In this document: in pieces, positions 3,386 through 58,800 of the stretch
Layout of the letters: every line of letters starts with the position of its first letter
Position numbering within the stretch: the stretch's first letter is position 1
Origin: Galaxea fascicularis
Lineage: Eukaryota > Cnidaria > Anthozoa > Scleractinia > Euphylliidae
Assembly (NCBI GenBank): GCA_948470475.1
Contig: OX419343.1
Location: 12,102,934 to 12,166,933, forward strand
Reading direction: 5' to 3'
DNA: 64,000 nt
Position numbers and translations under genes: made by a program
Notes under the pieces: model-generated
The model's input: only the letters and a program-made list of their open reading frames with translations
Told to the model about the DNA's origin: nothing
Databases searched by the model: none

Positions 3386-4393
3386 TCACGCACACAAGTT
3401 ATGGCCTGACAGACAATACTGTAGAATTGGATAATTTCTTTGTGTTGTTTTTTTAAATATTATTGTAAGCAGAAATGCAGGATCATTCAGGACAGCATCC
3501 AGTGCAATACTTGCAAAATATTGTACTGCTGTAACTAACCACACACATTATGATTGGTCAGACACTTTTTGTCACTAGTAAAAATATTGTACAGATGTAC
3601 GACCAATCACAGGCCGCAGTATCAGTTCTTCTGCCTTTCAGAAGAGCTTCCCAAGCTACTGATGCAAAACTTGGACACAGCTTTCATTATACCCTCTTAA
3701 TTGCCGTTTCTTTTTAAAGTTGTTCAAGATTTGCAGTTATTCCTCCAGTGGAGGAATTCATCAAAGGCCAAAAAAACAAAAACAAAAAAAACTCTACAGA
3801 ATGCCTCTTTGTTGAATGGTCAACCTCAATTTCATTTGCCTTGTTTGCTTGCATATGAGCCAACATGACCAGCAAGCAGTGTTGCTATTTACAGGTACTG
3901 TTATTTACAGTGTTGCATCCCAAATTAGCTTAGAAAGCCCATTGTGAGTTAATGTTTACGGAAAACTGTTGAACTGTCAAACTTAAATTTTCTTTAAAAG
4001 GACCCACTTAACATTTAAAAGCGTTATAATACATTAATTTAATGAACCGTTTAAAGTAAATTTTCACCTTCCCTTGGTTATTTGAAGCAGTTTCTAATTC
4101 CGTATTTGAGGTGCCTTGTACATTGAGTTAGCTCAAAGTAAAGTCCACATGTGTTCACGGCTCATTTTGCAGTCAGTTGACCATGATTTGTTAAGAGAGA
4201 AAATCTTAGTACTTATGTAATAAACAAATTACTTCATGGTTGGTTGAGTTGAATGACTTTTACTCACTTCATGTGAAGAATGAATCTTCACTTGTTCTTT
4301 TTACATGTATTCTTCACCATGCGTGAAGAAAAATCGTACACGCTCACCAACCATCTATTTTTCTACATTTCACTATGAAAAATACCTACTTAC
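3386..4393. other. Non-coding, probably ARHGAP-like gene intron
   Basis: It follows the donor site of the WW exon on the minus strand, so it should be intron. No further exon of the gene (second WW, PH or RhoGAP) was recognised. Confidence 0.4.
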
Positions 4394-7300: not shown

Positions 7301-8144
7301 GCATTTGGGTTCTTTCACGTTAAAAATAACATCAAACTGATAAAAAGTGCTGTACTGTATAGTACTGCTACAGTAAGTCTTATAAAATTAAGAGACACCC
7401 AAGTTTTATCCTTCACATTCTTGTTACAATTGTGCCTACATGTATGAATCTGGAATGCTACAGAAAAAACACAGTGTGCATGTACCATTTCTTTGCACTG
7501 TACCACTTCGCATTGTTTTTGCATGAAGTTAATTTCAAACCGCCAATCTTCCCCTCTGAGAATTCTAAATTTTGTTAATTGTACCTGCTCCCATCCTCCA
7601 AATACTTTGGCTAATGAGACCTTTCTCAAAATAATTGAAAATTCCATTGACCTTCCATGAGGAAGTTATGTAAATTTTTCTCCCTATAAATTTGCCTCGA
7701 TTAAAACAATGTGTCTGCAACTTCTGTATCAAGCAATATAAGAACCACATAGTTATCAAGCCTTATAACTCTTTGAAACTGAGCCTTTCGAACTTGAAGT
7801 AGAGAATTGGCGATTAACATATTGAGATCTTTTGCATCGATATTTTCAACCTCTCTCAGCTCATTCCTTGAAACTAAAAATTTGTTGAGCAACGAAACAT
7901 CTCTCTGTGTTTTGCTTAATGTGTTCTTGTATTCTTGATGCTGTACAAACTCATCTAAGGAGCAACCAACCAACACGAATTTAGAGCTTTCCTCCGCCTT
8001 CGCCATTTTCACAGGAAAAATTTGGAGGAGGCGCCGCTAGAAAGCCACCAAATCTGAAAAGCTATTTGAATGTAAACAATGCACGATTTTGATAGGCTAG
8101 GAAACGCCTTTACATTATCGTATAACACGTGAAAGAGCTGTACA

Positions 8145-8187
<43 letters not shown>

Positions 8188-10959
8188 AAGCATATAGATT
8201 TCCACAAATGAGTTTTATGGAATAAAATTCTCGTGTTATGTGTAATTAAGTATGTAACATTCTATGAAACTGGAATGTAGCTCTGTATTTTAATGCGAGT
8301 TATGTACTTATTGATTGAGTGGGAGGGCATGGGAAAATATTTGCCTCCTAATCAAGGCGTATGGACCAAGCATAGCAAGGGGACAGGAAAATCTTTCGCC
8401 CCTGGTCATGGAGTATGGACCAATCTCACGCAGTACCTTTCTTCATCTCCTCTAACCTATTACCTCCAGACCTTCTTTACTTCAAATCAGTTGCTATCTT
8501 AATGCATGATGTCTTCAATAATTTAACACCACCCCAAATAACTGATATATTTAATTTCCGATAGAATATTCACCCCTAAGTTAAGTAATCTGTTATCGTA
8601 AATCTCGTCTCTTTAATTAACTGTACACATCTAGTCCTAGTTCTTTGTCATTGTACTTTCGTTTCTCTTGTATTACCTGTTACTTTATTGAAAGTTTTTT
8701 TTTTCCTTTCACTTTGTAAGTTTGAATTGTTGTAAATTATTTGTTATGCGTCAAATCCAGTGCTCACCTCTAATAGCTGTTGCTAACTGTGAGCAGTGTG
8801 TATCTTTTTTCTCTGTATGTTTTTTAAGTCTTTAATAAACTTGAACTTGAACTTGAACAGCGAGGTACAGTGTATACACCATGACCAAGAGTCAAACATT
8901 TTCCCGTCCAGCCCAACCTAACTCAGTCAATAACCATTTTATCATATGACTGCAGCTGAATATTTAAAAATTTGCAAATGCTTAAATGTGAAAAGAATGT
9001 TGACACAAATATCAGATGGGCACACTGGGAGAACAATGAAAAAGATTGAGCAGAAAAGTGTCATTTATTTGTTCGCAACAAAACATGAAACTTTGAATAT
9101 TTATAAAAAATACATTATTTTTACCAAAGAGATTAAATGAACTCAGTAATATAAATATACTCAGAATCTAAAAGCAAAAGGATGGAAAGTGATTCACAAG
9201 TCTGAAATTTTGACTTGAGATTACTTGCTTGTTCCATAAGTTTGTCTAGTTAGTAAAACTCGCTTTCACGGTGTTCACGGCTGTCACTCATTTAGTGCAA
9301 ATAATAGTTAGTTAAACTTTTAAGTTGCACTTTTTTTCACCATTCCATATGAGCTTGAGTGGGGCCGGACGGCTTTTTCCAGACTGGCTCACATCAACCC
9401 ACCCTGCCCTGCTCACGCCATTTTGCAATTGAGTTTTTAATAGGATTGCGTGAGCAGGGCTGTACAGTCATATGATAATGTAACTTTGTGCCCTTGAGGA
9501 TTAATTAATAAAAAAATATTTGATGATAAGTATTAGGTGGCTCAACAAACAGTCCTTTTGTAACTTCAATCCTAATAGAAATCCCTATGTTAAAAAATTA
9601 CACGCTATTCAGTCAAGAGAGAATAACATGAACACAAAAATCCAGATAAGCTTTATGAATATGGAAAAAATAAGCTTCTAATGAATATGTTGTGGCTTAA
9701 ATTTGTTTTTTTTATTTTGAATTTTTTGAACCAGTTTATTTTTTATTTTCCTGCGGGTCATATTCATTGCCGTAATCTGAAACAAAGGAAATTAAAAATC
9801 AAACTTGTTCAAAACAATTTTAAACTAGGAAAAAATTTAAACCACGACATGTATTATTTAAAACGCACTGAGTTACTGTACCAGTTTTGTTATGATTAGA
9901 AATTACAAATTAGAAAACAAATTCAATGACTTCCACCAAATATTGATACAGCAAAACGTTACATCAATAAGCCATTTAAGTGAATGGAAGAGTCATTATC
10001 TGTGATATCTCATTCTTTGTCTACAGCTGCAATCACAACGGTTTTACGTGATAATAGCTTCAACAGACGTCCGCAATAAGTCTTGTTTTTATGACAACGA
10101 AATGAATGAATTCAAGACTGTGTTTTACGGCATACTCGACGTGTTTTATCCAATTACCACATGATATTCTCTAGTTTTTCATGTGGATCAGTTGTGGATC
10201 AAATATCTCATTACTTTGATACATAATTAATCAAAGATTAGCCCCCAGGGATGGACAGTACGTGCTGAAAACGTTGGAATTACAGTTTATCTTTCCAGAC
10301 GAACCTAACTAGACAAACCAAACTTTCGTTTTTGTGTTTATTTTTTAAGATATCAATAAGCTTCTTGTTGATTTGCCAAACACTGTGACAAACAAAAAGC
10401 GCGCTGGCTCCCAAAAACAACAAAGGGAAATAAAGCTTAGATACAATTCAAGCAGGATGCAACCAAAACAAATCAAACTCACCAATTCTAGAGACTTCGC
10501 TAGTGATTTCACACTGGCAGGACCAGTTTTCAAACCATTCGACTCCAGTACAACAGCGCTTGTATCTTCCGAATTTTCCTCCACATCGCCACTTCCTCTG
10601 TTTATATTGTTATGATCTGCGTTGTTGTCATCATCAAATATGGTGCTTTCTCCGTTCGATTCACTTTCCTTGTCTCTACTTTCAAAGTTTTCCCCATTTT
10701 CCTCGCGAAAAACACTTTCCCCATTATGTGGGTGATAGTTGTCAAAATCTTGTACATTTTCGTAAATTGGAATACTTATTTCCTTCACATATAACGCTGG
10801 GACGTAAATGGGTTTGTCAGTTCCCTTTCTAACTTGCCACCAATCTCCAGTCGTCTTGTTTAGCAAAGTGAATCTATCTCCTGTAGAAAATGCAATTGTC
10901 CTTCCATCGCCTGCTTCGTATGAATACGGAAACAGAGCTTCAACAGTTAGATTAGCCAT
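4394..10959 (-). CDS. ARHGAP9/12/15/27-type RhoGAP, 5' exons only
   Basis: Two exons of one minus-strand gene were recognised. Exon 10959-10483 starts with ATG, codes 159 residues and ends at a GTGAGT donor in phase 0. Residues about 5-62 form an SH3 domain with ALFPYSYEAGDG, the DWWQVR core and the final YVPALYV strand; the rest is acidic. Exon 4588-4394 (65 residues, phase 0 at both ends, AG acceptor, GTAAGT donor) carries a WW domain with LPTGW, the YYN core and the second Trp in ETSWKPP. SH3 followed by WW, with this SH3 sequence style, is typical of the RhoGAPs ARHGAP9/12/15/27, which switch off Rac/Cdc42-type GTPases at membranes and junctions. The PH and RhoGAP exons were not found and probably lie beyond the left edge. 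It is divergent from the CARD gene. Confidence 0.75.
4760..5568 (-). mobile_element. hAT-type DNA transposon remnant
   Basis: Terminal inverted repeats begin CAGGGTCCGACAAATATT at both ends, and ATTTTA abuts both outer edges as a possible target duplication. Inside, on the minus strand (about 5150-4895), lies a peptide with WWLTIDTTHGVMKCKIC, a later KFRKDPLYAHAKS and a terminal H. This is the Cys/His pattern of the BED/TTF-type zinc finger at the N terminus of hAT transposases. The catalytic domain is gone, so this is an internally deleted copy. It sits in the large intron of the ARHGAP-like gene. Confidence 0.65.
5569..7700. other. Intron sequence with palindromic repeat at its left end
   Basis: At 5610-5668 two copies of a 17-base unit containing CTCGTCTCGCGAGA occur; the first forms a perfect 18-base palindrome (5613-5630). 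Beyond that, no gene or repeat boundary was recognised. The interval is intron of the minus-strand RhoGAP gene. Confidence 0.45.
7701..8006 (-). pseudogene. Crypton-type tyrosine recombinase N-terminal fragment
   Basis: The ORF starts MAKAEESSK and contains KNTLSKTQRDVSLLNKFL and then an ELREVENIDAKDLN-like stretch. This order (ENKNT..KT..D..L..FL, then E.R.(I/V)E.I....L) is that of the N-terminal, core-binding-like region of Crypton-derived recombinases and their DUF3504 relatives. The expected RKKDG..YEP segment is degenerate (QVRKAQFQRV), and no catalytic domain follows. It is probably a truncated copy lodged in an intron. Family assignment is from remembered pattern and is moderately uncertain. 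Confidence 0.45.
8280..8870 (+). repeat. LINE 3'-end remnant with (TTGAAC)n tail
   Basis: The segment ends in TTAATAAACTTGAACTTGAA, a hexamer-repeat tail like those of CR1/L2-type LINEs. An imperfect repeat pair (ATCAAGGCGTATGGACCA near 8350; GTCATGGAGTATGGACCA near 8404) lies upstream. No reverse transcriptase coding remains, so the left boundary is approximate. Confidence 0.4.
8871..10344. other. Intron sequence, nothing recognised
   Basis: AT-rich intron of the RhoGAP gene. The pair GCCCTGCTCACGC / GCGTGAGCAGGGC near 9410-9465 can form a hairpin. No gene was seen. Confidence 0.4.
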
Positions 10960-11825
10960 GACAAGGCCTAGGCTTGAGATTTTTCCACCTTTAGAGTAGA
11001 TTCATAAGTTGATTTGGAGAAACGAACAACCTTTCTACATACACAGCCACCCGTCACTAGTTATGTTATTGAAGATGTAGACGCCATGTTGACAAAGCAG
11101 TTTTCAACGAGACTAACAAGTGACGTTTAGTGACTTTTCGATGAATGAATAAGCCAAACTTCTCAACGCTTGCAATCAACAACAAGAAAATATAAGCTCA
11201 ACCATTTAGCGAAACACGACTCTTTAAGCAAACGACATCCACGACGTATACATGTTCACGAATACTCCAAAACAATAAAGCGTGAATCAGTCACGTTATT
11301 ACGTCAATTACACCCACACATTCGCCTCACTTTTAGTTTTACGCTTGAAGGACCTCTCAGTGAGGAAATTTCCGCTACTTGAACGGTAGAAACCAGGAAA
11401 TCTCGACGTGTCCGAAGGCGAGCTATATTTCGCTTGACAAATTTTTGCTATGGCCTCGTTTCCAGATAAATTCTGAAATGCGAGAAGACTGAACACGAAT
11501 AAAAACCGGAACAGTAATCGGAGAGCGGAAAATGTGCCGAAATAATCACGAACACGTTCGGTAGAGATACAACCAATGAAAAACCAAGTAACCAAAATAA
11601 CAAATTTTCGGATGATTTCCCGCGTTTCTTGGAAAGAAACCGGAAGAATTGAAAGCGAAGGCAACATTCATTATTCGGGAGAATCCCTGGGCATATTTTT
11701 AGTCTTTGACGATTTGAATACAACTTATTTCTACCTGGCGTGGGCGAGGAAGTTTTTAGTTTCTTTGACCTCGGCGAAGTAATCACCGAGACCTCTGTAA
11801 ATCGCAGTGACAATTTTATCTTCAG
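10960..11825. promoter_or_regulatory. Shared upstream region of two divergent genes
   Basis: This interval separates the ATG of the minus-strand RhoGAP from the first coding exon of the plus-strand CARD gene. It should hold both promoters and 5' UTRs. The CARD exon is preceded by a good splice acceptor (TTTTATCTTCAG, ending 11825), so at least one upstream 5'-UTR exon is expected here; its donor was not identified. No TATA box was recognised. ORFs in this interval look spurious. Confidence 0.45.
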
Positions 11826-11843: not shown

Positions 11844-14800
11844 ATGGATCCAATTCATAAAAAAGTCCTTGCATACAAGACATCCGAAATAGCGGGAAGG
11901 ATTTCCAGTCCAGTCGTTTTATCTGGATTTCTTTCCAGGGTATTCAGTAAATCCGACAAGGAAGAAATACAAGCGAAAACCAATTCAATGGGAGCTACAG
12001 TTGGAACACAAACCTTGCTACACCTGTTGGAGAAGAGAGGAAAAGAAGCTTTCCCGTTGTTTATCAGTGCATTGAAGGATCATGACATGAAACTCGACGA
12101 TTTAGCAGCAGAACTGGAGAGCGAAGAAAGGAGGCTACGGGGAGAAGTCGGTGAGTTTCCTCTTGATCAGGTAAACGTTTCCCACGCAATTAAGTAGTCA
12201 CGCGATGACAGCAAATTCTTATAGGTTCCCTGGGCATGTTGCACGGTCTGGTAAACATATATACACAATCCTGCAGAATTGCTACTGTACGGAAAGCTTT
12301 TTAAGATACACGATTTCCTTGTATACCACTTGCTGCACAACACTTAGACCTCACAACAAAACTCAGCGACAACAAAGGCATCCTAGTACATAATCACTAG
12401 TTTCTTTCTCAAGGAGAACATGACATATGTACACTTGTACACTCAATCCTTACATGTCCCCCTTGTCTCATGCCTACTAGAAGGTGAGAAGCATTTTGTT
12501 CTTACGTTGATTACTGGTTATGACGTTTACAACCATCTCTGACAGAAACTCCATTTAGAAGAGCTAAAAGCCTTCCTCCCACAGCTGAAGAGTCCATGGA
12601 TCAGGATTGTAAAGGGATGTCACCACCTCCACCATATTCAGCACCTGTTGTAACGAGTAGTGCTGAAATGTACATTTTCAGTCAAGAAGAACAGCACCCA
12701 CCTCTTGAAAATCAGCCTCCTGCATCGGAGAACAGCAGTCAAACAAATCAAGAACCATTGTCTCCAAAGGAAATTACCTTAGGTAAAAATTAGTTTACCC
12801 TTTAGTTGTCCTTTTTATGACCCCTAATTTCTAATAGTGCACTGAAGGTAGTGTTTTATTCAACACACATTTTTCATCATCATTACATTGCCAACCAGGT
12901 TTGATATTCTAAGGAGAAATAGAATGATGACGTTACTGTTGTTACATAAGAGGTTATCCTACATCTAGCTATGCTATGGAACACCAAAAGTAATACCGGT
13001 ACATACTGCAAAAAGAGAATGAAAAAGCTGTCAGGTGTTATTTTCTACAACCATCAAATGAAATGAAACGAAAAGTGGAGTGACTTGTTCAGTTGTTTTG
13101 TACTATGATTATGGATGTCACCAAATTAAAACTCATTAAAAATCACAAACTGAAGTTTTTGGCCACCATCAATACCTAGTTGATCATGAAATGAATGATT
13201 GGTACACTGCAGATACACTGTAATTGTACTGTTCTCTACTTCCTCCTTTAATAATGATAAATTAAGGTTAAAACAGAAAATGATCTTTTGTCCAATGTTC
13301 AATATTAAGCTAAATGTTTGTGTTATAATTGGGAATGTATCTATGCTTTTTTTTTCTGACCTGGTGGTAACCTTGGTGACATTTGTTTGTCATACAGACT
13401 CTCTTGTTAAGGACATCCCCTTCAAACTGCGTATCAAAATTGAAAACATGATGAACCAAGAAGCTGTTACCAACCATGACTGGAGGGGCCTAGCTTGTGC
13501 CATGAACATGTCTACCGATGAAGTGCGTCAAATGCAGGGTGATCAAGAAAAAGGAAAAATGGCAGGGCTGTTTGATAAAATGATGCATTCAAAGAAGACA
13601 GTAAATGATCTCTTAGGCCTTCTCAGACATGATGATGTTCAGAGACTGGATGTGATAGATGAAATCATTGTGGGATGTAAACTTCCTAAACCATCGGTGA
13701 CAGAAACTGGGAGTTCTGAAAACCAGGAGTCAGGTTTGAGTTTCTTTTTACACTATCGAGGGAAGGATAAGACCTGAATCACAACAATATGAGAACCTGC
13801 AGTGATTCAGTGATAACTTAGAAAAAATAGGTAGAAAAAATTATTGAAAAAAAAAAGAATTATTTGTTACCCAGTATTGAAGTTGAGTGCCTGTAAACTA
13901 GCTGATTATCTAAGTGCACTTTCACTATAAACATTCATTTCTTTAAAAAAAAAAAAAAGCAACAAGGAATGTTTCTGCTTCTTACTGAATGGGATCAGTG
14001 TTACCCCACCTAGGTTCTTACAGGTAATGTTAGAAAGTTTTGATTAGTTTGCAATCTTACATTGAAACAAGGGCTAAAAAATCAGAGGAATATCCTAACA
14101 GAGTACCCCAACATGACCAGAACACAATTAGGTTAGAGGTGATTTTCACTAGCTGCCAGCTGCATTTGACAACCCTGTTCTTGGACTTGATTGTACCTAA
14201 TTTACTTTTACCCAGATTATTACACCTGTATTGCTTGGGGTACCTCTTAAAGGGGAAGTATCATGAGTTGTGCATGTGCGAGTTGATCCAAGAATCAAAA
14301 ATAGTAGTCGATAGATAAATTCTTTTATGGCACTTGAACCACTCCTTGGGATCTTTGCGATCAGTTAGAGCTATCTTTTTTCGACAAGAATTGTCTCTCC
14401 GACCGCCATAACCAAGCCCGAATCCCACACTTGAGGATGCCATTTTGTTTTCACGGTTCAACTTGAAAAATCTTAGCCTACCGTAATCTTTTTCAAGTTT
14501 GAGCGTCAGCGGGAGCATGCGCAGCTCATGCTAGTTCTCCTTTAAGGAGGCTGGAAAGGGTTTTTAGCTTGACGTGCATGCACAATCTACACATGCCATA
14601 ACTAAGATGCACGTGTCAGCTGAATGAATCAAAATCAAGCACACCGGAAGTTAAACACTGCGTGAAATCATGAAAACGGGAAATAAAATCTGCAGAAAAT
14701 GTTTGTTTTTTGCTTGAAATTTTGCTTGGTGACCTATCTTGATTTTTTGCATGCACGTACCATTCACGATGGCACTTCAAATATAACAGTTTCAAGGAAA

Positions 14801-17800
14801 ATTATCTGGTAGAATTTTCTGTAAGCCATAAAACATGTTTTTTTAAAATGTATTAAATTCTACTAGATAAATTTTTATCATACTGAATTTAGAGAATTTT
14901 AAAGAATTTAGAGAGCTTTCCAACAAAGAAATAAAAAACGATAGGTCACCGAATTAGTTTTTCAGATAATTTACAAAAACTGACATAACTGACCTTGTTG
15001 TGGACCTGGGGCATTGCCATGGTAACTGATATGACGTCACAAGCACCCTTAAAATATAGCCCAACAATAGAGTTCCAAGGAGACATATAGTTTGCCTACA
15101 CCATTAAAAATCTTTCTTTGCAATCTTTCATCGTTTTGCAAACACTACATCAACGAAAAACCTTTTCAAGCCTCCTGAAAATTATCATCATATTATTATA
15201 ATTGTAATCACTATTGGCCCGAAGACAGAAAGATGCCCACAACCTAATCAATGATTTATCAAGACATTATTTTTTGTAGATTGCACGGATTTTCCATCCT
15301 CGCTTGAAGAATCCTGCAAATCTACATCAAAGTCCAAGCCATTACCATTTCCTAGACAAGAATCTCTAGATCTCCAGGAGATTGATAACAAACTCCCTAC
15401 TCCTAGCCAGGTGCAAAATGATGATGATCCAAAGGTCAAAAGTCTGTCAGAATTACATACCAAAGTTACATGCATACCAAGTCAGGCAGTAGACAATGAG
15501 GATGTACTCAAACCAAGTCAAGTGGAAGACAATGGGGACCTTGATCTGAAGAGCCAATCAAGCTGTCAGCTGTCATGCCACATGGAGAATAGCCACACAA
15601 TTTCTAATGATGATGAAGATGATGTCTTTGACTGTGCAGGTATCAATATTGACATTGCATGTATCAATGCTGCCATGCAAATCCTTCTGGTGAACAGATG
15701 TAACCCCATGGATGGGCAAAGGTCAATTCCATAATTGTGGCCAAAATTCCTAGCTTAAGAGGACTTTATGCTTGAGAATAGATATGTTTAACACCACCCT
15801 TCCCCACCCCCCTGCCACCTACCCACTTCCTCCTGCAGTGTTGATCTACTCAAGCATTTTGATCATCATGTGTAATCATTTTGAACATTAATGTAGTGCA
15901 AATATATGTATTCCCTGTGTTGTAAAGATGTAACACCATTTAGCAAATTATAACTGTTACCACAATTTATTGTACTAGTATGAAAAGATGTTGTCTGAGG
16001 GTACCCACTAGATTTCTGCCTGCAGTGCATTGCCCGGGTGCATTTGTTGAGTTATATAAGCACGTAGGAATTTTTTAAGAACACAAGAGAAGTGCCTAGA
16101 GAAGCACAAGCCGAAGGCGAGTGCTTCTCGCACTTCTTGAGTGTTCTTAAAAATTCCCAAGTGCTTATATAACTCAACAATGTACGAGTAACAAGTTTTT
16201 TATTTCTTTTATAAAATGTCGCAGAGATTTAAGCGAGCTTTCATACCTATTTGCTTGCACACGAGTTTGTAACGTAGGCAGCATGCATTATAACTCAACA
16301 GTACACACGCGTGACATACTGTAGAGTACGTGCTTTGTCGGGATATAATGAACTCGATTCAACCAAATCACGGCACGCATAACTCTTCCAACATTTTATA
16401 ATGGCTTATCAGGCATGCTCCAAACTGACTTGCAGTACAACTGGATTTTAGCAAAATGGCAGATGGATCAGAACCCTGCAAGGCAGCTAAAATTTCTCAT
16501 TGCAATTTGAAGACTTTTGAAAACAATTTTCATGACACAAATGCTATTCAAAGAGTATAGAGTATTGTCCAGGTGTAAAATTAAAATTAATTTCACCATT
16601 ACCATAATTTATTGAACATTTGATGAACAGCTTACAAATAATATGATTTATGATTAGGTTAATTTGATTATTAAAATCACATTATAATTCACTAGAATCA
16701 ACTGGGAGCAGTATATGTGAGTTTTCAGCACTATTTACTTGTCAAGTAATTGATTTTCAAATTTATTTTTTATTATCAGACAGTGAGGTCAAAAAGTGTG
16801 CACTACTCATAAGCTGCAATGGAAACAGTAAAAGTGAAAAACTGCATGACCGGAAATTGCGGGATTTGGAGGAAATACTGGCCGATGAAGAAGCAGGATG
16901 GCATGGTATGGGGGACTGTCTGACTTAACAATTATTGAAATAACATTACATTTCTACAAGGTAGTTGCATTCCCAGGGGGATACTCTGGACTTCAAGAGA
17001 CGGGCCATGATGATGAAGGATCTTTTTGAGTTTGACATGTTTGATTCCAGGATATTGTGGTATTCAAAACAATCTGAAGATTTGTGGCAGTGCCCCAGGG
17101 GTAGTGCCTGCATATCCTGGCCACCTAGATCACTTTCTAAAGGATTTTTTGTCTTATATTATTTAATCCTTTTTGGAAAATGTTAAGGCTCTGAGATTTG
17201 GTGTGGGAATTCTTTAGGGTTAGTTTGTTGGTCAAGGGGTTTTTGGGGTTTTGATATTTTCCCACATTCAATCATCCCCATCACTTAAATCCCCCCCCCC
17301 CCTACCCCACCCTTTCCATCCCACCTGGAAATTTTGCTTCAGAATTAATTATTTCTTTCATCAACTTTGGTTTACACTTCCAACCAAAATTTTGAGTAAT
17401 TTCCGCTGTTTTGTAGCTTTTCTCAGGTAATTTAATTTTCTTTTCTTTAATATAGTTTAGGAACAGTTGACTTCAATAAGTGAAGTAATTTAAGGAGGGT
17501 TCATCCTTACCCTTGTGTTTTAATATTTTTGGATAAATATTAATTTAATATAAGCAGCCATTGAAAATATTGCTAGACAACAGGCCATGTTTACTTTGTT
17601 TTGCTTTCCCAGTTGTATCTGATTCAGGTTTTCTGTGCTTATCTTTAGGTGATAAACAGGTTTGAAGCCATTTGGCATGCAATATGCTTATCAAGTAACT
17701 TAACAGATGTGTTTAAAATGTAAATTATTTTAATCTTGTAGTGATATATAAACCCAAGTGTAAAGTGTCTGAATTGATGCAAACTCTTCACTCCAAGTTG

Positions 17801-20800
17801 GGGGACCTTGGGAAATCTGGAGTTATCTCATTCGTTTACCTTGTGGGACCTACAGTGCATGTGAGTTGAATGTTTATTTTGATGATAAAGAAACTGTGTC
17901 ACATTGAATTCAGAGTGTGTGGTTCACAAAATATCCATGTACACACCACCCACCCCCACCCCTCCAAAAAATTTCAATTTAGCTCCATACTTTTCTTTAA
18001 GAATTTTTGCATTTGCTTTTGCTAACCTCCCCTCCCCCCTTGAATTTCCATTTATATTTCACGGGGGAGGAGGGTTGGATATGGATATTTCCTAGAACTG
18101 CACAATAATTGTTAATTATGTTTAGATACTGCAACATTTTTATTTCTCATTGTCTAACAAAAACATCAAAGCAACCTGAAGGTTGGAAATTATACAATTT
18201 GTGATCAATGCCTCCTGTCTGTGTAGAGACCCAGTTTGTGGAAAGGACAACCGAATACTTTGATATGCGTTGATGGTTTATTCCGTGTAAATCAGCAAAC
18301 AAACTTCCATCGCACCAAGCAAATGACTGGTACAATCAAATAAACTAACTAGCCAACAATTAACCAACGATTCACTGAAATAAATACAAATGAACTGAAA
18401 TTAGAAAATAATACGGCGAGCACAGAAACCAGCAAACAAAACCGACAGATATACGACGTACTTACAAGTATTTCGTGCCTAGATCACAGACAAAAACATA
18501 AAAATACAAACAATGAAATATGCCATGTGCCTTTATCAATACTTAACATCTAAAATGGAGGAAACAGTCGATGAGGCCAGCAGCTTGCTGTAGTTAAGCT
18601 GTCCTAAAGTGTCCTACTTGGAACCAACAGTCTGTTTTCTGAATTGCAGATAAATGGCGAGAATTACTTACTCCCTACTGACCTGAAAAGTCCTTCCTCA
18701 CGAGCTGACCTTGTACACAGTTCCTTGAACATCAACTGGCTGGTGGCACAACTGAGAAAAAATCATGTTCGTAGTCTATCTGCTCTTGAAATTTTAAAAT
18801 TTTTTACACCATGGCTGCTTAGTCTAGTTTGCTTAAACTGAAATGTGATGTGGTTGGTAATAATTGGATAGGTATTACTGTTCTAAGAAAGTTTCAGAAG
18901 TACATTTGAGGCAAAAACTTCAACCTAGCCCACATTTAGAGCACATATAAAAGAAGACAATAAAGTACATTTACAGGACAATAGATCAGGACAATAGAGG
19001 AATACGGATTTACATATTTGGCTTACCATGACGTTCTTGCCACATTTGAAATAGTATTGAGCATATTGCAGTGCATTATTGTTAGTATAGTCTATGTGGG
19101 TTAGTCCAAGTGAAACATGCAACATTTTCTTTCAATTTGTTGTGCTGGCACAAAGCATTGGTTGCAATAACAAGTTTTTTTTGTGTACATTACCACCTTT
19201 ACGCACAACAGACATACATGTTAGAATAAGTAGAAATCGTCTCTTGTTTCTGCAACAAGAAAATTTTGTGCAACAAAACAACTGCAACATTGTCAATGTT
19301 GCTCATCAAACTGAGAGAAACTGTTGCCTGTTGGCCGTGGCATTGATGTGCCGCCTTGATGTGTCATTCTCTAAAGCTAGTTTAACTAGTTGTTGTGCCT
19401 TGGCATTTCGATTCTTTTGTACTGAAGAAGCCATGAATGAATCAAACTCTGATTACACTGCAAACAGCCAGTGAATCTTGTAAGAAGAAATGACATGCGC
19501 CCTAACATTGAGCTATATGGGATGTAGAAGGCAACCAGGGGATCTCATAGATTACATAATTTATAATTTGAATTAAATTTAATTAATTAAAATAAATACC
19601 ATTAGTAGCTTATGTTCAACTAGTATTTTGTGTAATTTTTCAGATGCAAATAGTAATAGTTGATGGGGCCCATGAGAATGCTACCAATGATGTGAATCTT
19701 AATGGGGTCCTAGAGGGATTGGCACCAATGTGTCCACCGCCAAATGCAGTCATTGCTTTTCCATGTCACCCAGGCATGATTAGAAAACAACAAGAAAGGC
19801 TGTGAGTATCTTAGTATGTAATCTTTGGTTCACTTTAAACCGCAGTGCAACAGTTTAAGCCAGGGGGGCATCTTTGGGTCAGACACAAAGGATATAAACT
19901 TCTTACTTCCTGTTTCTTTAACTCTTCCTGCAGTTCATTTCCAAAACTCCTAAAAACATTTCAGGCCAAATTAAAGCTTTTGTCAAGTCGATTGATTGAC
20001 TGATTGATTGTAGCTCTGTTCAATTGTTTGATCAATTATTGAAGTTCCCCAAAAATACAAAACAGATAAGTAACAATAAATAATCAGAAAATCCATGAAG
20101 AAAAATACAACTGAGTCAGTCACTCAGTGTTTTCCCTTTTTTGGTACTTAAGCCTTTTGGACGTTTTAGACAAAGTGCCCCAATCTTTCCCTTAATTTTA
20201 CAGTGTTCTTTCAAAAGAGAGTGTTAAACGAATTTCTGTTAATGAACATACTGCATGTAAAAAAGTTAATTATTTGTTTCCAAAACATTTTCAGCAGTTT
20301 TCAGAGACACACACCTGCTTCAGTGAGCCCTTCATAATGTGTTCTCCCTTGATTAAATTGTTACTTACTAACTCTAGTGTCCACTGTTGCACAATCCACA
20401 CACTCTTTGCACAACCACACACTCCTCTCCAACCCCCTGCCTTTCTCATGTTCAGGGATGTCAAAATTAGGGTAGTTGCAAGAATGAGCTTTGGCTAATT
20501 TTAGAAGTTTTAAATAGTAATAATAATAGTTTGCTATTTTGTTTTCATGTTGTGTCATGTCAAATGACTTTAATTTGTTGTTGTTGTTGTTTTTTTTGTC
20601 GTTCAAAAATTTTAGGGCCTACATAGAAACTTTGATAAAAAACTTGGAGCAGAACGTGACTCTGGATGGTCTGTTTGATAACGTCAGAGAGGAGCTGTCA
20701 CAAAGGCAACCAGAAGTCAGCAGTTTACCTTTGGAATTTTCACTCACTTCGTCTCTTTTACCATTCCGTCTGAATCCTGGGGATAGCAAAGGTTAGTAGA

Positions 20801-23800
20801 GTCTATCAATGACAAAAGTTAACATTTTTGAGGTGGTACTGATAATGCTGTATGGCTCAGAGGATAACCATTTAATGTTATGTCACAGGTTGAAAGACTA
20901 GAATCAGCATGATCAACAAATAATGAATGATTATCTTTCCTTTCTGCTTCAAATGAAACAAAAGAACTCAGAGCTGCTGCAAATAAGATCTTCTTTTGAT
21001 TTTCATTTATAGAATTCAAACATTTTGGCCATGGAACTAACACAGAACTGCATGTTTCCTAAGCAATAGGCCAAAGTATAACAAATTCAGAACCCACATC
21101 ATCAGTTATGCATGTATGCCTTTTTGGACCAAATCCTTTAACTGAAATAGATAGACAACATCCACACAAAAGAACCAACTGAAGTTATTTTAAATTGAAG
21201 ACTTGCCACAATCCTTAACCTTTAATTGGCATAACTGCCAATAGTAAAGCTAATCTGGCCACAATATTTGTCACAACTTTTTGTATTTAATTTAATATGT
21301 ACTTACCTATATTTGTATTTGTATTTCATTTCCTAAGGACTTTTAGTACTTCCCACAAGGAATATTTCTTGCCATGCGATCATAGTTTCAAACTCCAAGT
21401 ATGATGGACTCATCATGAATACCCAGCAATGCGTTGAAGACCGTGAAAAGTTGAGGATGGCACTCTTAAAAAGTGGATGGTGTTGTGGTAAGGTTTATTA
21501 AATAAATATCAGCAGCAAAGTGAGGAAAGGTAAACCACAACATTCAATCAGATTAGATATCTCCCAAAGCTGTTGCAAGGGGCACCCGAAGAATAGCTCT
21601 GGGTGCCTTAATTTTTCACTGCAACACCTTTCACTTCATTTGTTGGGCTCCTAAGTTCTCAGCGTTCAGCTCCAAGGGCCCCTTCAAAATTTTCTTAGTT
21701 AGCAACCTTGATATCTCCCATTTCACTATGCAATAGAAGTGTAGATTATTTCTTTTATATAGAAACCTTTTTTGTCAGGTTTACACGAACCCCTGCAATC
21801 TTTAAAACTGTGCCCATGAAAGTTACCTTCACGACTAGATAGATGACACCAATCCTTTAACAATGTGCAACAAAAGTAGACTGTAAAGTTGCAAAGTTGC
21901 AGACTTGCAGATTTTATCACCTGGAATATGTCACGCAACTCTCGTCATTAATGCTAAATCACGCGGCACAACATATATATATATGTACCCTTACTTTCTC
22001 TTCGCCGCGATTCACCACCTTAATCGTCCCCGACTTTCTCTGTCCGACCTCGTAGCTTAGTCGGCAGAGCAACGGTAGATCTAATCCGGAGGTCGTGGGT
22101 TCGATTCCCACCGAGGTCATAAGAATTTTTTCTTTGCCTCGCCCAGTGGGTTTTTCATGGGTTTCTCTCAGCACTTTAATTTACACTGCAGAGTTAATTC
22201 TCTGTTCCACCACTTATTAATGCTAAATCACTTCACTACAGCGGATGGCAAAATAGCTGAAGGTAAGTGATGTTTCTTTTGAAGAAATTTTGTACTTAGT
22301 CGCTAATGTATTGATGATTAGCAAACTGAAGTAAATGTATTTACATGCTTTTGGCCACGCTCAAGTGTAACATCGTCACTCAAACCGAGTTTTGTCCAGT
22401 CATTCCTCATCAAAGACCTTCCAAGTCGATTTGGACGTTGTGGAAGCTGAGAAAGTCATGAGATAACCTTCAGATGTCACATTGGGTTAGAAATCCTTAG
22501 CTTCTAAGCTGTTACAGAAATGTGGCTTTGCTTAGAGATTTAGATTACGTTCGCTTACGCAGGAAAGGGGAGTAACTGCAGAATACCCGGCCACTTGAAG
22601 TTATACCCCTAAAAAATCTGGCTGTACTAAACAATTCACGTAGGTCACAAATTGATTGCCAAAACGTCGGGAAGGACTTCGCTATGGAATGAATGAACAA
22701 AACTCCAGCGACGTTGTCGCGCTTAAGCTCGGCCAAAAAGCATATGAATAAATCTACTTTATTTTGCTATTTATCGGTACATTAGAGACTGAGTACAAAA
22801 TCCCAAACAAAACAAAGAAACATCACCGACTTACCTTCAGCCATTTTGTGCTCTGTCCTACTCACCACGTGACTTATTTTAGCGAGAATGAAGAGACTGA
22901 CGTGACTGCGTGACATATTCCAGGTGTTGTGATAAAAATTGTCAAGTCTGAACTCCCCTCCCCCCCACCCCATCCAACGGAGAACCACCTCTTCTCTTAT
23001 CTTCCACGTACCCGCAAGTATTTCGGTCGTCACGCAACGCTTTGTGTGACGACCGACCCAATCAACGAATGCGTGATGGACCTCTCCTCCACAAATATTC
23101 ACAATGAGGGAGCACTCGTATGCTAGAATTCCTTTGATAATCACTTCCTAGGTTTGAACGCTGTTACGTACTAAGATGATATTCTGTTTTGCATTGCAAC
23201 AGAGGAAATCTGTGACAAGTCAGCAAAAGAAATCAAGGATGAGCTGAGGAAGGCTCTGAACAGCTTACGTGACCAGAACAAATGGGTGATGGTGTATTTC
23301 ATGGGTTACACCACTAAGGTCAGTCAATGTGTAATGTCTATCTGAATTTGTTTATTCTTAGGTTAAAAAAAGTGACTTAGCCGCTGAGATTTCGCAAACT
23401 GAACAGTCCTTGAATGAGAATAAGTACTCATGTGGATGTTTATGAGCCCTCAGAGGACGACTATGGGCTTTTTATGGCAAAACTCGATGACATATGTTTT
23501 TGTTAGCTTCCGGCCGCCATATTTGTGTCCCTCAGAGGGGCACAAACATGGCGTCTCCATACAAAAGCCTTAAAATTTAAGTGGAACATTTCTTCGAATA
23601 TCTCCCGCACGAAACATCGCACAAACCTGAATCTTTGCGAGACTGTTTGAATATTCATCTTCTTTTGTCTCTTTGATTCTTGACTTTATTTGTTACATGG
23701 TTTTGATGACGGTGTGACAGTGAAAACCGGCAATACGCTTTCATTAAGTAGGATACAAAAGTGGACAAAGTTAGGAGCTTAAAATTCCACACTATAAACC

Positions 23801-26783
23801 ACAATCTCGGTCAAAACAAATGAAAAATTTAACCCCCCCCCCCCGCCCATTTCAATGATGAAAAAGAGGCGCAGTTTGGTTTACGCGCGAACTCAACATT
23901 GATATGGGGGGGGGGGGGGGGGGAATTTTATTCTGTCCAAGATTGCAGGTTGCATAATGCGCCGCCAATTCAAGACAAGAGTGCACAAATCATTCCCTAT
24001 TTCAGACCAAAACGGTTGAAAAACCATACTTTTTGGCGCTGCACATACCTATATAGCCCATATAAGGGAGTACCCCTTCCCCACCCCCCCCGGAATACCT
24101 GTCCATGTGTTTTTACAAGTTTGAAAGCATTTTAACCTGACTTTTGACCTGTCAGCCGGAGGGTGGGCATCTGACAGTGAGCCAGTGGCAACCATGTTTT
24201 TGTTGTAATGATTTTTTTTTTCATCAATGTCTACGTGCGTAACAGGAGAGATTTTGAAAATGAATTGATTAAAAAGTTAAACGCTAAAAGATTTTTAAAA
24301 CACAAATATAAAAGTGAACGACGTTTCGGCGCTACGTTACGCCATTATCAAGTTAGATTTAGTGAAAAGTATAAGGTGTGAAGTAAATATATAATATTTG
24401 AAAAAATACATAAAATGCTTGCGGGTCCTATGGGTATTGGCCGTTCAGAAATTCAAAAGGGAACTGGGGCGAGTTTCAAATTTTGAAGTAATCGATAAAT
24501 TGACACCATCACATGAAAGATGACATTGAGATTGGTCGTTTGACCAAGTTTGACTCTTTTAGGTTGAACAGAGACCAAGTTATGGACCTTGAAACATAGC
24601 TCAAAATCCATACAAATGTCTCTAATGCAGCCTAATGCAGCCTAATGCAGCTCTAATGCAGCCTAATGCAGCCTAGCTGTGGCCTGACGGAATAATTCTG
24701 CGTTTTAAACATTTTTATAGAGTCAGCCCCCTCCTGGCCTCCGCACTTTGAAAAATGCTCCGTATATGCAGTGATTCCTAAACCATAAGGGAAGAACCAG
24801 TAGTTAACTAACAACTCTGCATTCGAAATGGCTATATTTGTTCTTATGACCTTCATGTATTTTATTGCTTAACGTAAACTTTCGCTGCTTGACGTCAATC
24901 TGTACCCCTAGCTGTGATCTCTGAGTGCCTAGATTCATATGAGTAATATTCGACATTAACCTACGCTTATAACTCCCAATTTATTGCAGATAATGGATGG
25001 CAACTATTTCGTTGGAAAAGATTTTACGGTTGGGTCTGCGGAGCCCCTTCGCTCGAGTGTACCCGTCCAATGGGCTCTAGATCTGATGTGTGAGAAGCTC
25101 CAAGGAGTAAGTATTTTGAGTGCTCTGTGGTATGAAGACTTATATGGGTACAATGTTTCTCCGTCTTCCCACGGCATAACTGGAGGGCGAACTATTATAG
25201 ACCCCTCCTCAGTTTTCTCTTGGCTCGAAAGTCTCGAAAATTGTACAGATCTAGACCATAGACGGCAAAATCGTGAATATCCCATGGTCAATACCCGAGG
25301 TACATGAGATTCGTATCCACAGTAAGGAAAACTAAGAAAAGTATTAAACTCTCAGGACGAGAAATGTAGTGTCGGATCGCCAAAGCGCAACTTGGACTAA
25401 AAATTATCAAAAGCAAATCTTGAATTGGTTAATGGTTTATACTACTACTCTATTTAGGTCAGTTAGAGGGGTGAGAACAGGATGTTTGACTTGTTGTTCC
25501 AGTGCTCCTCTGCGTCAATTGTCCTCACCTCTTCCTGTCTTTCCTACCTTAAGTTATCCTGCGAAATTGTGCGGAATTAGGCTGACTTGGCTTAAATCAG
25601 GCGTTGTTCCGCAGGATTGAACACACCAATAAGAAAGCACAATTTACTAAATTAACTACAGAAAAGCCCAGGGCCCGGTTGTTCGAAAGCCAATTAACCT
25701 AATCCAGGATTAGCGTAAACTTTGGTTTCAGGTTTTAACTTTCGGATGAAAATTGTTTCGGCTGCTTTTTGTTTTTCAGGATTGACTTCCCCTAATCTAA
25801 AATTTTACAGAATATCAGCAATGAACAACGTTTGGGGAAAGAGAATTAAGCTCCTTGATTAATTTTAATCTTGGATTAGCGTTAATCGGCTTTCGAACAA
25901 CCGGGCTCAGAAGAAAAGCGCTATTTTTCTACGCGTCGAACAAAATGAAGTACATCGCTCGCAGGATATCTTGAGTACGCACAGCGAATATCGAGTGCCA
26001 CGTGACCATATTTGGACAGTGTCACAATGTGCGGAATAATAAAAGGCATTATTATGCAACATGCCAATTCCGGATACTGTCGAAATTCTGCCATGTGTTC
26101 TCTCGTTTACTGCTAACAGTCACTTCTACTCCATAATATCCGTCCACATTTCCCGACCCCCCGCTTACCTGGTCATTTTCTGTCTGTGACAGTAATTTTC
26201 GCGGGACTCTTGGTGATAATAATCGTTGTTCATAACCTTCCTTTCTTTTTGTTGCAGCGTAAAATCTTGATACTTGATGATTTAAATACATGCAAGAAAG
26301 GACTGACGCAGATGACAGTCCCACTTGAAGTGATGGTCAGTTTACCAAAAGGAGGCGATTCTGGGTTAGTTATATTACTAATTCTGGCAGATCCACGATT
26401 TTACAACGATATCCTCCATTTAGCTTTGAAAATATGCTGGGATATTTTTCCTTGGACATTATAGGTTCCTCGAGGACAAATATCCGCGCATATTTGCGCG
26501 CCAATTGGAGACTTGTTTATATATGCTCCCCCTCCCTTGCAGGGTTATTTTTATGGCTGTACTGATGAGGATGTTCTGACATTTACAAAAGTTATTAAAA
26601 AGCTAATAGTGCTGCTATTTTTTTCGTTTTTACAGACAAGATCCGGATGGCGCTAGTTTTACCAGCAACTTTGCTCGCTTATTGGAAAACAAGTGGGGCG
26701 AACTGTCCCTCGAAGTGATGGTCCAAAAGGCTGCGGTATTTGACCGACATCGCCTCAGTTCCAATTTATTGTACTCAAAATGA
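11844..26783 (+). CDS. CARD-death domain-tandem pseudo-paracaspase protein
   Basis: Fourteen exons join in frame to 857 residues: 11844-12150, 12546-12782, 13398-13733, 15280-15639, 16780-16905, 17742-17860, 18650-18766, 19644-19801, 20616-20791, 21338-21487, 23203-23318, 24990-25106, 26258-26364, 26636-26783. All introns are GT-AG. Residues about 1-95 are a CARD; about 182-285 a death domain with HDWRGLACAMNMS; about 290-413 an acidic linker. Two C14 (caspase/paracaspase)-like domains follow, about 414-645 and 646-857. Each has the first strand (CALLISCN; HAIIVSNSKYD), the strand before the His loop and a NYLLPTD/NYFVGKD element. The catalytic His is replaced by Pro492 and Tyr731 and the Cys by Ala543 and Leu782, so neither should cut. 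CARD and death domains bind like domains in apoptosis and NF-kB-type complexes, so a scaffold or decoy role is inferred. The ATG at 11844 is the first in the exon, after an acceptor at 11825. The least certain splice is donor GTTCGT at 18767, supported by the equal 117-base exon in the second domain. Confidence 0.88.
14246..14546. mobile_element. MITE in intron 3 of the CARD gene
   Basis: Imperfect terminal inverted repeats of about 34 bases start CTTAAAGGGGAAGTATCATG on the left and, read inverted, CTTAAAGGAGAACTAGCATG on the right. The interior codes for nothing recognisable. Superfamily unknown. Confidence 0.55.
14545..15176. mobile_element. Second MITE abutting the first
   Basis: The ends read AGGAGGCTGGAAAGGGTTTTT and, inverted, AGGAGGCTTGAAAAGGTTTTT. 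The left end touches the right end of the preceding element, so one probably inserted into or beside the other. Non-coding, AT-rich interior. Confidence 0.55.
16045..16179. repeat. Fold-back element in intron 4 of the CARD gene
   Basis: An almost complete inverted repeat of about 60 bases per arm (outer end TGTTGAGTTATATAAGCAC) surrounds a loop of about 15 bases near AAGCCGAAGGCGA. A single strand would fold into one long hairpin. Its compact form suggests a small MITE or fold-back transposon. Confidence 0.65.
22044..22200 (+). repeat. tRNA-derived SINE in intron 10 of the CARD gene
   Basis: The head GACCTCGTAGCTTAGTCGG holds a perfect A box (TAGCTTAGTCGG); GGTTCGATTCC is a perfect B box, and CGAGGTC closes the acceptor stem with GACCTCG. 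The anticodon stem is mismatched (CGGTA against AATCCG). A unique body of at least 80 bases follows, so this is a SINE head and not a tRNA gene. The 3' end was not resolved. Confidence 0.65.
24321..24352 (-). repeat. Hammerhead-like motif in intron 11
   Basis: The minus strand reads CTTGATAATGGCG, a loop, then CGCCGAAACGTCG. The GGCG/CGCC arm and the CGAAACG box match the layout seen at 774-806, 975-1004 and 56388-56427. Probably the end of a decayed Penelope-like copy. Confidence 0.4.
24622..24675. repeat. Short tandem repeat of CTAATGCAGC
   Basis: Five copies of a 10-base unit (CTAATGCAGC), one with a two-base insertion (CT), lie in intron 11 of the CARD gene. They look like a small polymorphic minisatellite. 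Confidence 0.7.
25673..25906. mobile_element. MITE in intron 12 of the CARD gene
   Basis: Inverted ends GCCCGGTTGTTCGAAAGCC are identical on both sides and continue imperfectly for about 25 more bases, both including GGATTAGCG-like words. The interior (234 bases overall) is non-coding. Confidence 0.65.
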
Positions 26784-30854: not shown

Positions 30855-31243
30855 TGTAAGATCCCTGGGCGCTAGTTCGTTTGTTTTATTCTTTGTAGCC
30901 TGCTCGTTAGTGTTTTATTGTTTGTGTGTCACACCTTCGTTCCGAGTTGTTTTTGCACTTCATCACAATTTGCACCTTTATTTTAGTCTCGTCGTGTTGT
31001 GCATATAATTACAGTGTTTGCCATATATAAGCCTTAGTTTTCTTGTTTTTTGGGGGTATAGCAGTTTTTCCTTGGCAGTGGACGCGCTACGCGCGAGTTT
31101 CTATTTTTCACATAGCACGTGTAGTGAAGTTCTCGCAGTTTATCCTGCAGTTGTTTTTTAGTAGCCGTAACAATTTTCAACCTACGGTTTACGTATACTG
31201 TGTTATGTACCGTCGAGTTTGAGAAGGTTTATCGGCAGTTATA
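30855..31243. mobile_element. Insert in RNase H: candidate solo LTR
   Basis: This 389-base insert begins TGTAAGATCC and ends CAGTTATA. GACTG occurs immediately on both sides (30850-30854; 31244-31248) as the target duplication. Taking out the insert and one GACTG restores the RNase H reading through HITVHTDH, which fixes the boundaries firmly. It has a TATA-like CCATATATAAG inside and no coding. A five-base duplication and a TG start suggest a solo LTR, though it ends TA and not CA. Confidence 0.65.
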
Positions 31244-32656
31244 GACTGTTATATGCGATTTGCCCAGCAGCCACTGATCAAATTTGTTGAAGGCTTCAAC
31301 GATGGCTAGGCAATCCTTTTCGATTTGCGCATAGCGCTGCTCGGTAGGGGTTAGGCTCTTGGAGCTGTATGCAATGGGTTGTAATGAAGATTCATCAAGT
31401 GTGGTACCACTGTGTGGTTTGCTGGGCTGCAAGAGGGCGGCTCCTAGACCATAGTCTGAGGCGTCCACCTGAAGGATCACTGGTGCAGTTACATCATAGT
31501 AGGCCAAGCATGGCGCGCAGGTGGCTAGGGCTTTTGCTGCGTCAAAGGCTTGCTGGTGTTTTACTGACCACAGGAACGGCACATCCTCTTTGGTGAGGTT
31601 GCGTAGTGGCTGGGTGACGCTGCTAAGCTGGGGACAAAATTTGGCCAGGTAATTGATAGCCCCAAGGAATCGGCGCACGGATTGCTTGTCAGTTGGAGTG
31701 GGCATGGCAACGATAGCTTGAACCGTGACGGGGTTGGGTTGGAGGCCATCTGTAGTAATAACATGGCCCATTAAGGTGGCTTTGCGAACAAGGAATTTCA
31801 TTTTGTTGACATTCAGCTTTACATGGTGCTGCTCAAATCGCTCAAGCACAGCGATGAGGTTTCGGTCGTGGTCGATTCTGGCTTCCTCGTCAGTGGCCCC
31901 ACAGCCAGGGACTAAGATGTCATCGGCGATACTGATGATTTGCAGACCTTCAAGAACCATATAAATTCGACGCTGCCATTCCTCGGATGCGGAGGATATG
32001 CCAAATGGTAGTCGAGACCATCTGTAGCGGCCCCATGGTGTAAACATCGTGGTCATCAAGGATGATCTCAAGGTCAGGGAGATATTCTGGAAGGCTTCTT
32101 TCACATCTATCACGGTCATGTATTTCATCCCATGCAGCTTGTGGAGATTTTCTTCCAAGGTTGGGATGATGTACTTTGGACGTCGGATGGCTTTATTGAG
32201 AGTCTGAGAAGGGTCTAAGCAGATTCGTATTTTTCCCGGTTTGCTGGGGGTTGGTTCTCTCTCCCGCACAACCATGTTGGAGATCCAGTCTGTTGGTTGA
32301 GGTACCCTTACTAGCTGGCCTGTGGCTTCATAGGCATCAAGGGCTGCTTTGATTGTATCCAACTTTGAGATGGGTTGGCGGTGAATGGGCGCATGGATGG
32401 GTTTGACATTTGGATCCAGGTCAAAATCAACGGGTGGGCCGAGGAAACCTAGACCTTGAAATAGGGATAGGCAGTTCTTTGAAATGAAGTCCAAAGTTAG
32501 AGTCCCTAATTTGGGCCAGACTCGCGTTGAAGTATCTGGGGGTGCTGGAGGTGATCCGGCAGCCGATACTTGGTTGTTTCCAGGTACGGTCATCGCCAGT
32601 TGGGCAGGGTCGCTTGTGGAGCATTTTCTTATAAAGTCAGAGTGTAGAACTAGCAC
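31244..32656 (-). CDS. pol: Gypsy reverse transcriptase and RNase H, truncated
   Basis: The frame holds the protease tail, then the RT with KIRICLDPSQTLNKAI, MTVIDVKEAFQ, RLPFGISSASEEWQ and the catalytic box IADDILV (A in place of the usual Y/F before DD). RNase H starts at VILQVDASDYGLGAALLQ. The frame breaks after KSHITV because a 389-base insert (30855-31243) lies there; RNase H resumes at HTDH on the far side, followed by an in-frame stop. RT copies the element RNA; RNase H removes the template. Confidence 0.8.
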
Positions 32657-32823
32657 ACCCAGTGTTTTGCTGGCTTCAATACTGAGTAAGGCTGGTTGGA
32701 CGGTGTCAATGATTTGGAAGGTGAGGTTGCACGTTTACTGGCCTGGAGAGTGACTTGACCAATGGGTTTGATTGGTGAACTGGCATAGGGTAGTATTACA
32801 GTTGAAGAGGGGAGAAGCTTGGC

Positions 32824-50325: not shown

Positions 50326-50415
50326 GATTTTTGGTGTCAGGAGTGGGATAGCTCTTTAACAGTTTGCATAAACAGCTCAAAAGGAGACACGCAAACAAAT
50401 AGCAGGAGATTTACT

Positions 50416-55072: not shown

Positions 55073-55152
55073 ATACCTTATGCTACTATAATTTCACCTT
55101 TACTATTTTTGTATTCTCACTTTCCCCAAAAATAGCTATTTAAGGGGGGAGG

Positions 55153-58757: not shown

Positions 58758-58800
58758 CTCGATGGTAGCGATCGATGTATAGGTTCTCGTTGGATCTGAC

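Follow-up and report, generated by a model that had tools for sequence, protein, structure and literature searches.

What does a protein do that carries two protease-fold domains, neither of which keeps a catalytic dyad? The question is raised by a locus of the coral Galaxea fascicularis (11844..26783, + strand), analyzed within a 64,000-nucleotide stretch of contig OX419343.1 that is referred to here as the window and supplies all coordinates. A preliminary description had joined 14 exons into a protein with a CARD, a death domain (DD) and two C14-like domains, A and B. The gene model was rebuilt from genomic DNA and compared with relatives and known structures. The results fit best with a signalling scaffold of the coral lineage that derives from an inactivated protease and would act in innate immune or cell-death signalling and not as an enzyme, a reading given about even confidence.

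Loss of the catalytic dyad in domains A and B

The two protease-fold domains and their catalytic positions lie as follows.

16780..20791, + strand: exons 5-9, dead paracaspase-like domain A, phase 1-1 cassette (exons 16780-16905, 17742-17860, 18650-18766, 19644-19801, 20616-20791)
17849..17851, + strand: Pro492 codon, catalytic His position of A
19668..19670, + strand: Ala543 codon, catalytic Cys position of A
21338..26783, + strand: exons 10-14, dead caspase-like domain B and stop, second cassette (exons 21338-21487, 23203-23318, 24990-25106, 26258-26364, 26636-26783)
23307..23309, + strand: Tyr731 codon, catalytic His position of B
26282..26284, + strand: Leu782 codon, catalytic Cys position of B

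Active sites were read from a profile alignment with nine active C14 proteins, in which GHG and DACR are intact in 9/9. In domain A (E 5e-23), GPT pairs with GHG and DGA with DAC; in domain B (E 1.4e-8), the corresponding triplets are GYT and DDL. An independent alignment of A to B (E 2.4e-8) places residue 492 opposite 731 and 543 opposite 782. By both alignments, Pro492, Ala543, Tyr731 and Leu782 occupy catalytic positions, and all four had been named correctly beforehand. An alignment that restores an intact His-Cys pair had been the point to check; no such pair exists in the register of A or B, nor in any readable member of the family (0/13 for A, 0/11 for B). Whether relatives share the same substitutions had been suggested as a check; the His-Cys loss is found in all readable members, and the residues at the sites vary. 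The His site of A is Pro, Ala or Ser in 13/13 members, and the Cys site of B is Leu or Val in 11/11. Domain B of P0006, P0008, P0011 and P0012 (Stylophora-like or pocilloporid-like) is half-dead, with His kept at the His site and Val at the Cys site. Judged by the lost dyads, both domains are probably inactive, as had been proposed.

Residual catalysis by A and B through different residues, whether an unusual hydrolysis or another reaction, is very improbable. Such activity could draw on C426, C575 and H436, which are invariant, on the nearly invariant C768, and on the His kept in B of the four pocilloporid-like proteins; however, no domain has an in-register His-Cys pair, and the residues at the A His site (13/13) and the B Cys site (11/11) speak against it. 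All six frames of the locus were also scanned for an active site left intact elsewhere, a search that motifs split by introns would escape. It yielded no GHG and one minus-strand DGCRK directly before a stop, and an intact site in another frame was rejected.

Pfam Peptidase_C14 matches B alone at 4.7e-10, and A alone gives no match at E 1. AlphaFold was run on the Montipora ortholog with a 13-row alignment (mean predicted local distance difference test, pLDDT, 61.8; predicted template modelling score, pTM, 0.44). In this model both A and B are predicted to keep a caspase fold, in agreement with the preliminary description. The pLDDT is 81-88 in the CARD and 62-83 in the DD except for one block at 49. 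A and B reach 65-89 through most of their first two thirds and 42-81 in the final third, and most of both linkers stays under 35; domain orientation is not reliable. By predicted fold, A lies nearest the MALT1 paracaspase, and the best matches of B are caspases. Sequence-only PDB searches with the window protein, the full-length profile and the A+B profile gave no caspase-domain or MALT1 match. P0020, the one active relative tested of the nine, matches MALT1 at 3e-12 to 4e-10 and caspase-7 at 0.074, and the link to MALT1 rests on this match together with the predicted fold.

A conserved gene and its duplicated exon cassette

The first four exons encode the CARD, the DD and two linkers.

11844..12150, + strand: exon 1, CARD, residues 1-100 (Pfam CARD/CARD_2; family profile against the RIG-I CARD)
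12546..12782, + strand: exon 2, disordered proline-rich linker 1 with PPPY (pLDDT about 25-32, ortholog model)
13398..13733, + strand: exon 3, DD, residues 182-280 (Pfam Death in the family; profile against IRAK3 and MyD88)
15280..15639, + strand: exon 4, acidic disordered linker 2 (pLDDT under 50, ortholog model)

Variation of the model covered the six junctions that have alternatives close by; some donors four bases downstream occur at other exons. Two of the combinations stay open, giving 849 and 857 residues and differing solely in the exon-7 donor (18742 or 18766). The longer product is preferred because the 12 aligned relatives carry residues that only donor 18766 keeps; donor 18742, which removes them, was rejected. 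The open chain of 14 exons and 857 residues was thus recovered as first described.

The 12 relatives are 45-64% identical to the window protein. All four domains are present in eight, and the other four are partial: P0009 and P0012 lack the N-terminal part, and P0007 and P0010 end within B. The five named relatives are all stony corals, namely Montipora capricornis (P0002), Porites evermanni (P0005 and P0010), Stylophora pistillata (P0006) and Acropora digitifera (P0007). Database entries call the relatives ‘uncharacterized protein’, ‘unnamed protein product’ or ‘CARD domain-containing protein’. Both the first relative search and the A+B profile search were confined to the 8000 candidates with the most shared words and could have overlooked active coral paralogs. 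A domain-B search, which needs shared exact words and scored 740 candidates, returned 10 proteins including the query, all already seen, and no sea-anemone relative.

Mean pairwise identity (21 pairs, seven proteins) is 0.54 for the CARD (from residue 16), 0.58 for the DD, 0.59 for A and 0.57 for B, compared with 0.27 for linker 1 and 0.39 for linker 2. Because A and B are conserved as tightly as the CARD and DD, and the linkers less so, the dead domains look constrained on this comparison rather than decaying. Within the variable linker 2, V409 and F410, at the end of exon 4 in the acidic stretch just before A, are invariant in 13/13.

A fused gene model or decaying pseudogene was also considered. 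In its favour, the window model was built from genomic DNA only, and two of the related models, one from Acropora and one from Porites, stop short in B. Yet five relatives with all four domains (P0001, P0003, P0004, P0008 and P0011; 842-905 residues) have longest cluster contigs of 3.0-4.0 kb, which should be intron-free because the gene spans 14.9 kb here. Their source tag, ‘lgn’, presumably denotes read assemblies, which would make them transcripts. Junctions 6-7, 7-8, 11-12 and 12-13 fall inside gap-free aligned blocks, with small length differences near the other junctions, and the domains are better conserved than the linkers. An artefact is already largely refuted on these grounds and has an almost negligible probability. 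Transcripts that split the model into two genes had been suggested as a check; in the relatives, the short four-domain contigs favour a single gene.

The start phases of exons 5-9 and of exons 10-14 are both 1, 1, 0, 0, 2. In the A-to-B profile alignment, which was built without intron data, the A introns at residues 456, 496 and 535 map onto B residues 695, 735 and 774; B in fact has its introns at 696, 735 and 774, and their phases match those in A (1, 0, 0). The fourth pair, 587 and 809, is outside the aligned part. By a rough, uncomputed estimate, the chance of such a match is about 1 in 100,000. On intron positions and alignment, A and B are the products of a tandem exon-cassette duplication, which was absent from the preliminary description. 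In a tree with 25 rows, made up of 8 A, 8 B and 9 active sequences, A forms one group (98/99) and B another (100/100), and the duplication is therefore older than the split of the sampled corals. The placement of B relative to the active proteins is unsafe because the tree tool warns of long branches. Intron 10 contains a tRNA-Arg(tct)-like sequence (22046-22119), perhaps part of a short interspersed element.

Interaction domains, linker motifs and a proposed scaffold mechanism

In a Pfam scan of the window protein, CARD (3.7e-7), CARD_2 (7.7e-7) and Peptidase_C14 pass the cut-offs. Death falls below its cut-off (E 0.019, 15.5 bits versus 22.6); its best E within the 13 members is 0.00016. Across the family, matches at E 0.1 or better were obtained for CARD in 11/13, Death in 10/13 and Peptidase_C14 in 8/13. 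Pfam thus supports the proposed union of CARD and DD in one chain, the DD mainly through family members. The order is CARD then DD, as in RAIDD-type adaptors, with A and B following. The Stylophora model P0006 has two CARDs in residues 1-316 and the very similar P0011 has one, possibly reflecting a fused gene prediction.

Against the PDB, the family CARD profile ranks RIG-I (3e-6), RAIDD (1.2e-4), caspase-9 (0.003) and MDA5 (0.004). BCL10 and MAVS are not among the 23 PDB sequences matched at E 1, which does not by itself exclude kinship, and the earlier label of a BCL10-like CARD finds no backing in this ranking. The DD profile matches IRAK3 (0.0026) and MyD88 (0.012), both weakly, and also Unc5h2 and Pelle at E 1; the MALT1 DD is absent at this threshold, and kinship to MALT1 is not thereby excluded. 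No Ig domain was found in Pfam scans of the 13 members at E 0.1, and the ortholog model shows disorder ahead of A. These results bear on the initial idea that BCL10 and MALT1 are joined in one chain as a self-contained CARD-BCL10-MALT1 (CBM)-type filament scaffold. DD and CARD are both present and A is nearest MALT1 by predicted fold, but a full ‘MALT1-like body’ is not supported. The CARD is nearest RIG-I and RAIDD with BCL10 not listed, the DD is nearest IRAK3 and MyD88, B is nearest caspases by predicted fold, and the scans show no Ig domain, which type 1 paracaspases combine with DD and paracaspase domains (PMC5978004). The idea is thus quite improbable.

The preliminary description had missed an array of TRAF-type motifs in linker 2 (residues 281-413).

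15351..15362, + strand: PRQE, residues 318-321, TRAF1/2/3/5 major-type Px(Q/E)E (consensus from PMC6125299)
15477..15494, + strand: PSQAVD, residues 360-365, TRAF minor-type PxQxxD
15513..15530, + strand: PSQVED, residues 372-377, TRAF minor-type PxQxxD

Both Px(Q/E)E (major) and PxQxxD (minor) have been published as TRAF1/2/3/5 motifs (PMC6125299). Each of the remaining long linkers, eleven in number, carries 2 to 6 PxQE or PxQxxD. Relative to residue shuffles, these motifs are in excess in 12/13 linkers (p at most 0.0105), all but that of P0009, whose linker 2 is a 41-residue fragment with none. As a correction for after-the-fact motif choice, a.bc patterns were ranked by log-likelihood over the 12 long linkers. 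P.QE came first (38 seen versus 1.35 expected, 12/12 linkers), with P.AR behind (6/12). Repeats that apparently correspond read QVED in some relatives and QEE in others, giving a minor or a major TRAF1/2/3/5 motif. Linker 1 is not enriched in PxQE/PxQxxD. It contains PPPY (12626-12637), a ligand type of WW domains, and PPxY occurs in 7 of the 11 family members having linker 1.

As a scaffold, the protein would assemble homotypically through CARD and DD with upstream immune or death complexes. PxQE and PxQxxD peptides of the flexible acidic linker would dock the MATH domains of TRAF1/2/3/5-type proteins, and the tandem dead caspase folds may form a platform that holds partners without cutting them, possibly an active paracaspase or caspase, in the manner of c-FLIP and caspase-8. 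Once clustered on CARD/DD assemblies, the protein would bring TRAFs together and start NF-kB-type signalling.

Several points weigh against this scaffold. The linker motif was picked after the linker was seen, repeats within one linker share descent and are not independent, and contiguous KPD, DAR and SQV show enrichment too, since they belong to the linker repeat. A first-order Markov control is weaker (p 0.038 for the window, 0.18 for P0010 and 0.036 or less for the other ten). Strict PxQE occurs only once in the window protein, TRAF6-type motifs are absent from both window linkers, and for contact with TRAF the D of PxQxxD is possibly dispensable (PMC6125299). The named relatives are stony corals only, so that general occurrence in cnidarians goes beyond this sample, and near copies are present among the relatives (P0002/P0003 and P0006/P0011/P0012).

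The same domains could instead act as a decoy or brake, the CARD and DD occupying platforms and the dead domains blocking recruitment of an active caspase or paracaspase, as c-FLIP can. This is somewhat unlikely, although both enzymes appear dead and precedents exist. For Acropora caspase-X, cell killing was more effective with the active domain by itself than with the complete protein, and the authors infer that the dead domain may modulate the active one (PMC4715348); FLIP(L) is reviewed as a pseudo-caspase regulator (PMC7586951). A pure decoy, however, would need neither a conserved TRAF-type motif array nor two complete caspase folds. A scaffold or decoy role of one kind or the other, as first suggested, is likely given dead sites in predicted caspase folds.

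In stony corals, the dead-protease scaffold might serve more specifically as an adaptor that connects RIG-I-like receptors (RLRs), through the CARD, and Toll/IL-1-type complexes, through the MyD88/IRAK-type DD, to TRAFs, replacing MAVS and IRAK. A survey of 15 cnidarian species found MAVS, IRAK1/4, TRIF, RIP1 and RIP2 missing, called the RLR route without MAVS unclear and suggested other CARD proteins (PMC8260672). Nematostella RLRs carry CARDs (PMC8476169). An adaptor would fit this gap because the protein combines an RLR-type CARD, an IRAK/MyD88-type DD and TRAF motifs. Nevertheless, such a role is unlikely: the word-limited domain-B search gave no sea-anemone relative, the CARD and DD assignments are modest, and MAVS is not among the CARD matches. 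As a scaffold, the protein would represent a paracaspase body turned fully to scaffolding, in duplicate, and joined to CARD and DD. It would be a natural experiment separating the two jobs of MALT1, cutting and scaffolding, and a concrete, testable candidate for MAVS-less RLR signalling in reef corals, in which disease and bleaching are linked to immune and cell-death signalling.

Genomic surroundings and comparison with known systems

Other features of the window are the following.

4376-11001, - strand: divergent neighbour with an SH3 open reading frame (ORF) at 10348-11001 and a WW ORF at 4376-4588
31232-32734, - strand: separate reverse transcriptase/RNase H element
49481-55790: probable long terminal repeat retrotransposon, with near-identical ORF sets at 49481-50070 and 55201-55790 flanking a gag ORF with SCAN and zinc knuckle (50203-52167)
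58783-60774: Pao-type element (Peptidase_A17)

The SH3/WW neighbour, perhaps one gene of SH3-WW RhoGAP type, lies head to head with the CARD gene at a distance of about 0.9 kb. An NF-kB promoter site was rejected, as one kB-like match occurs at 11678 but the window holds 8 versus 8.08 expected. A bacterial promoter scan upstream of the gene found 2 versus 2.1 expected, a phage search with exon 9 gave no match, and a tandem-repeat scan gave nothing of use.

The architecture is not described in the available parts of PMC4715348, PMC5978004, PMC6426788, PMC11121540 and PMC8195603; the first mentions predictions in databases, unverified, that combine several caspase domains with CARD or DD. Open-licence PMC literature yielded nothing on pseudo- or tandem paracaspases, two locus names, or CARD, death domain and paracaspase in Porites.

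With MALT1, the coral protein shares the paracaspase fold. Unlike MALT1, it has an added CARD, a second caspase-like domain, two dead sites and no detected Ig domain; its DD is nearer IRAK3/MyD88, and its linker motifs are of TRAF1/2/3/5 class rather than TRAF6 class. RAIDD (CRADD) likewise has a CARD and then a DD, and its CARD is among the best profile matches, but it ends after the DD and has no protease-fold domains. The death-fold domains of c-FLIP are DEDs, which stand in place of CARD and DD, and its dead domain is single. Nevertheless, c-FLIP(L) likewise combines death-fold domains with a dead caspase fold and is a regulator, not an enzyme (PMC7586951; PMC11121540). Acropora caspase-X is likewise a coral protein with tandem caspase folds, the first lacking His and Cys. 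It differs in its active second domain, in having two Peptidase_C14 domains only, with no CARD or DD in the table given, and in being grouped with caspases (PMC4715348). Its dead-first, active-second pattern is not seen here, as the second domain is dead too in 11/11 readable members.

As regards MAVS and the RLRs, the coral CARD matches RIG-I best, with MAVS not listed, and the coral protein has TRAF-type motifs in a disordered region; TRAF6-MAVS and TRAF3-Cardif complexes are named in PMC6125299. The coral protein differs in its DD and dead proteases. A hydrophobic C-terminal tail or membrane anchor is not visible, the last 25 residues being polar when read by eye. Pseudo-orthocaspases are bacterial and are not known to carry a CARD or DD. 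They likewise have p20 domains with a substituted His-Cys pair, including Tyr for His, and their authors consider that pseudo-forms seem restricted to prokaryotic orthocaspases (PMC6426788). In its proposed working the coral protein resembles c-FLIP and the scaffold role of MALT1 but belongs with neither: it is not MALT1 because it has no detected Ig domain and no catalytic dyad, not c-FLIP because it has no DED, and not caspase-X because it has no active second domain.
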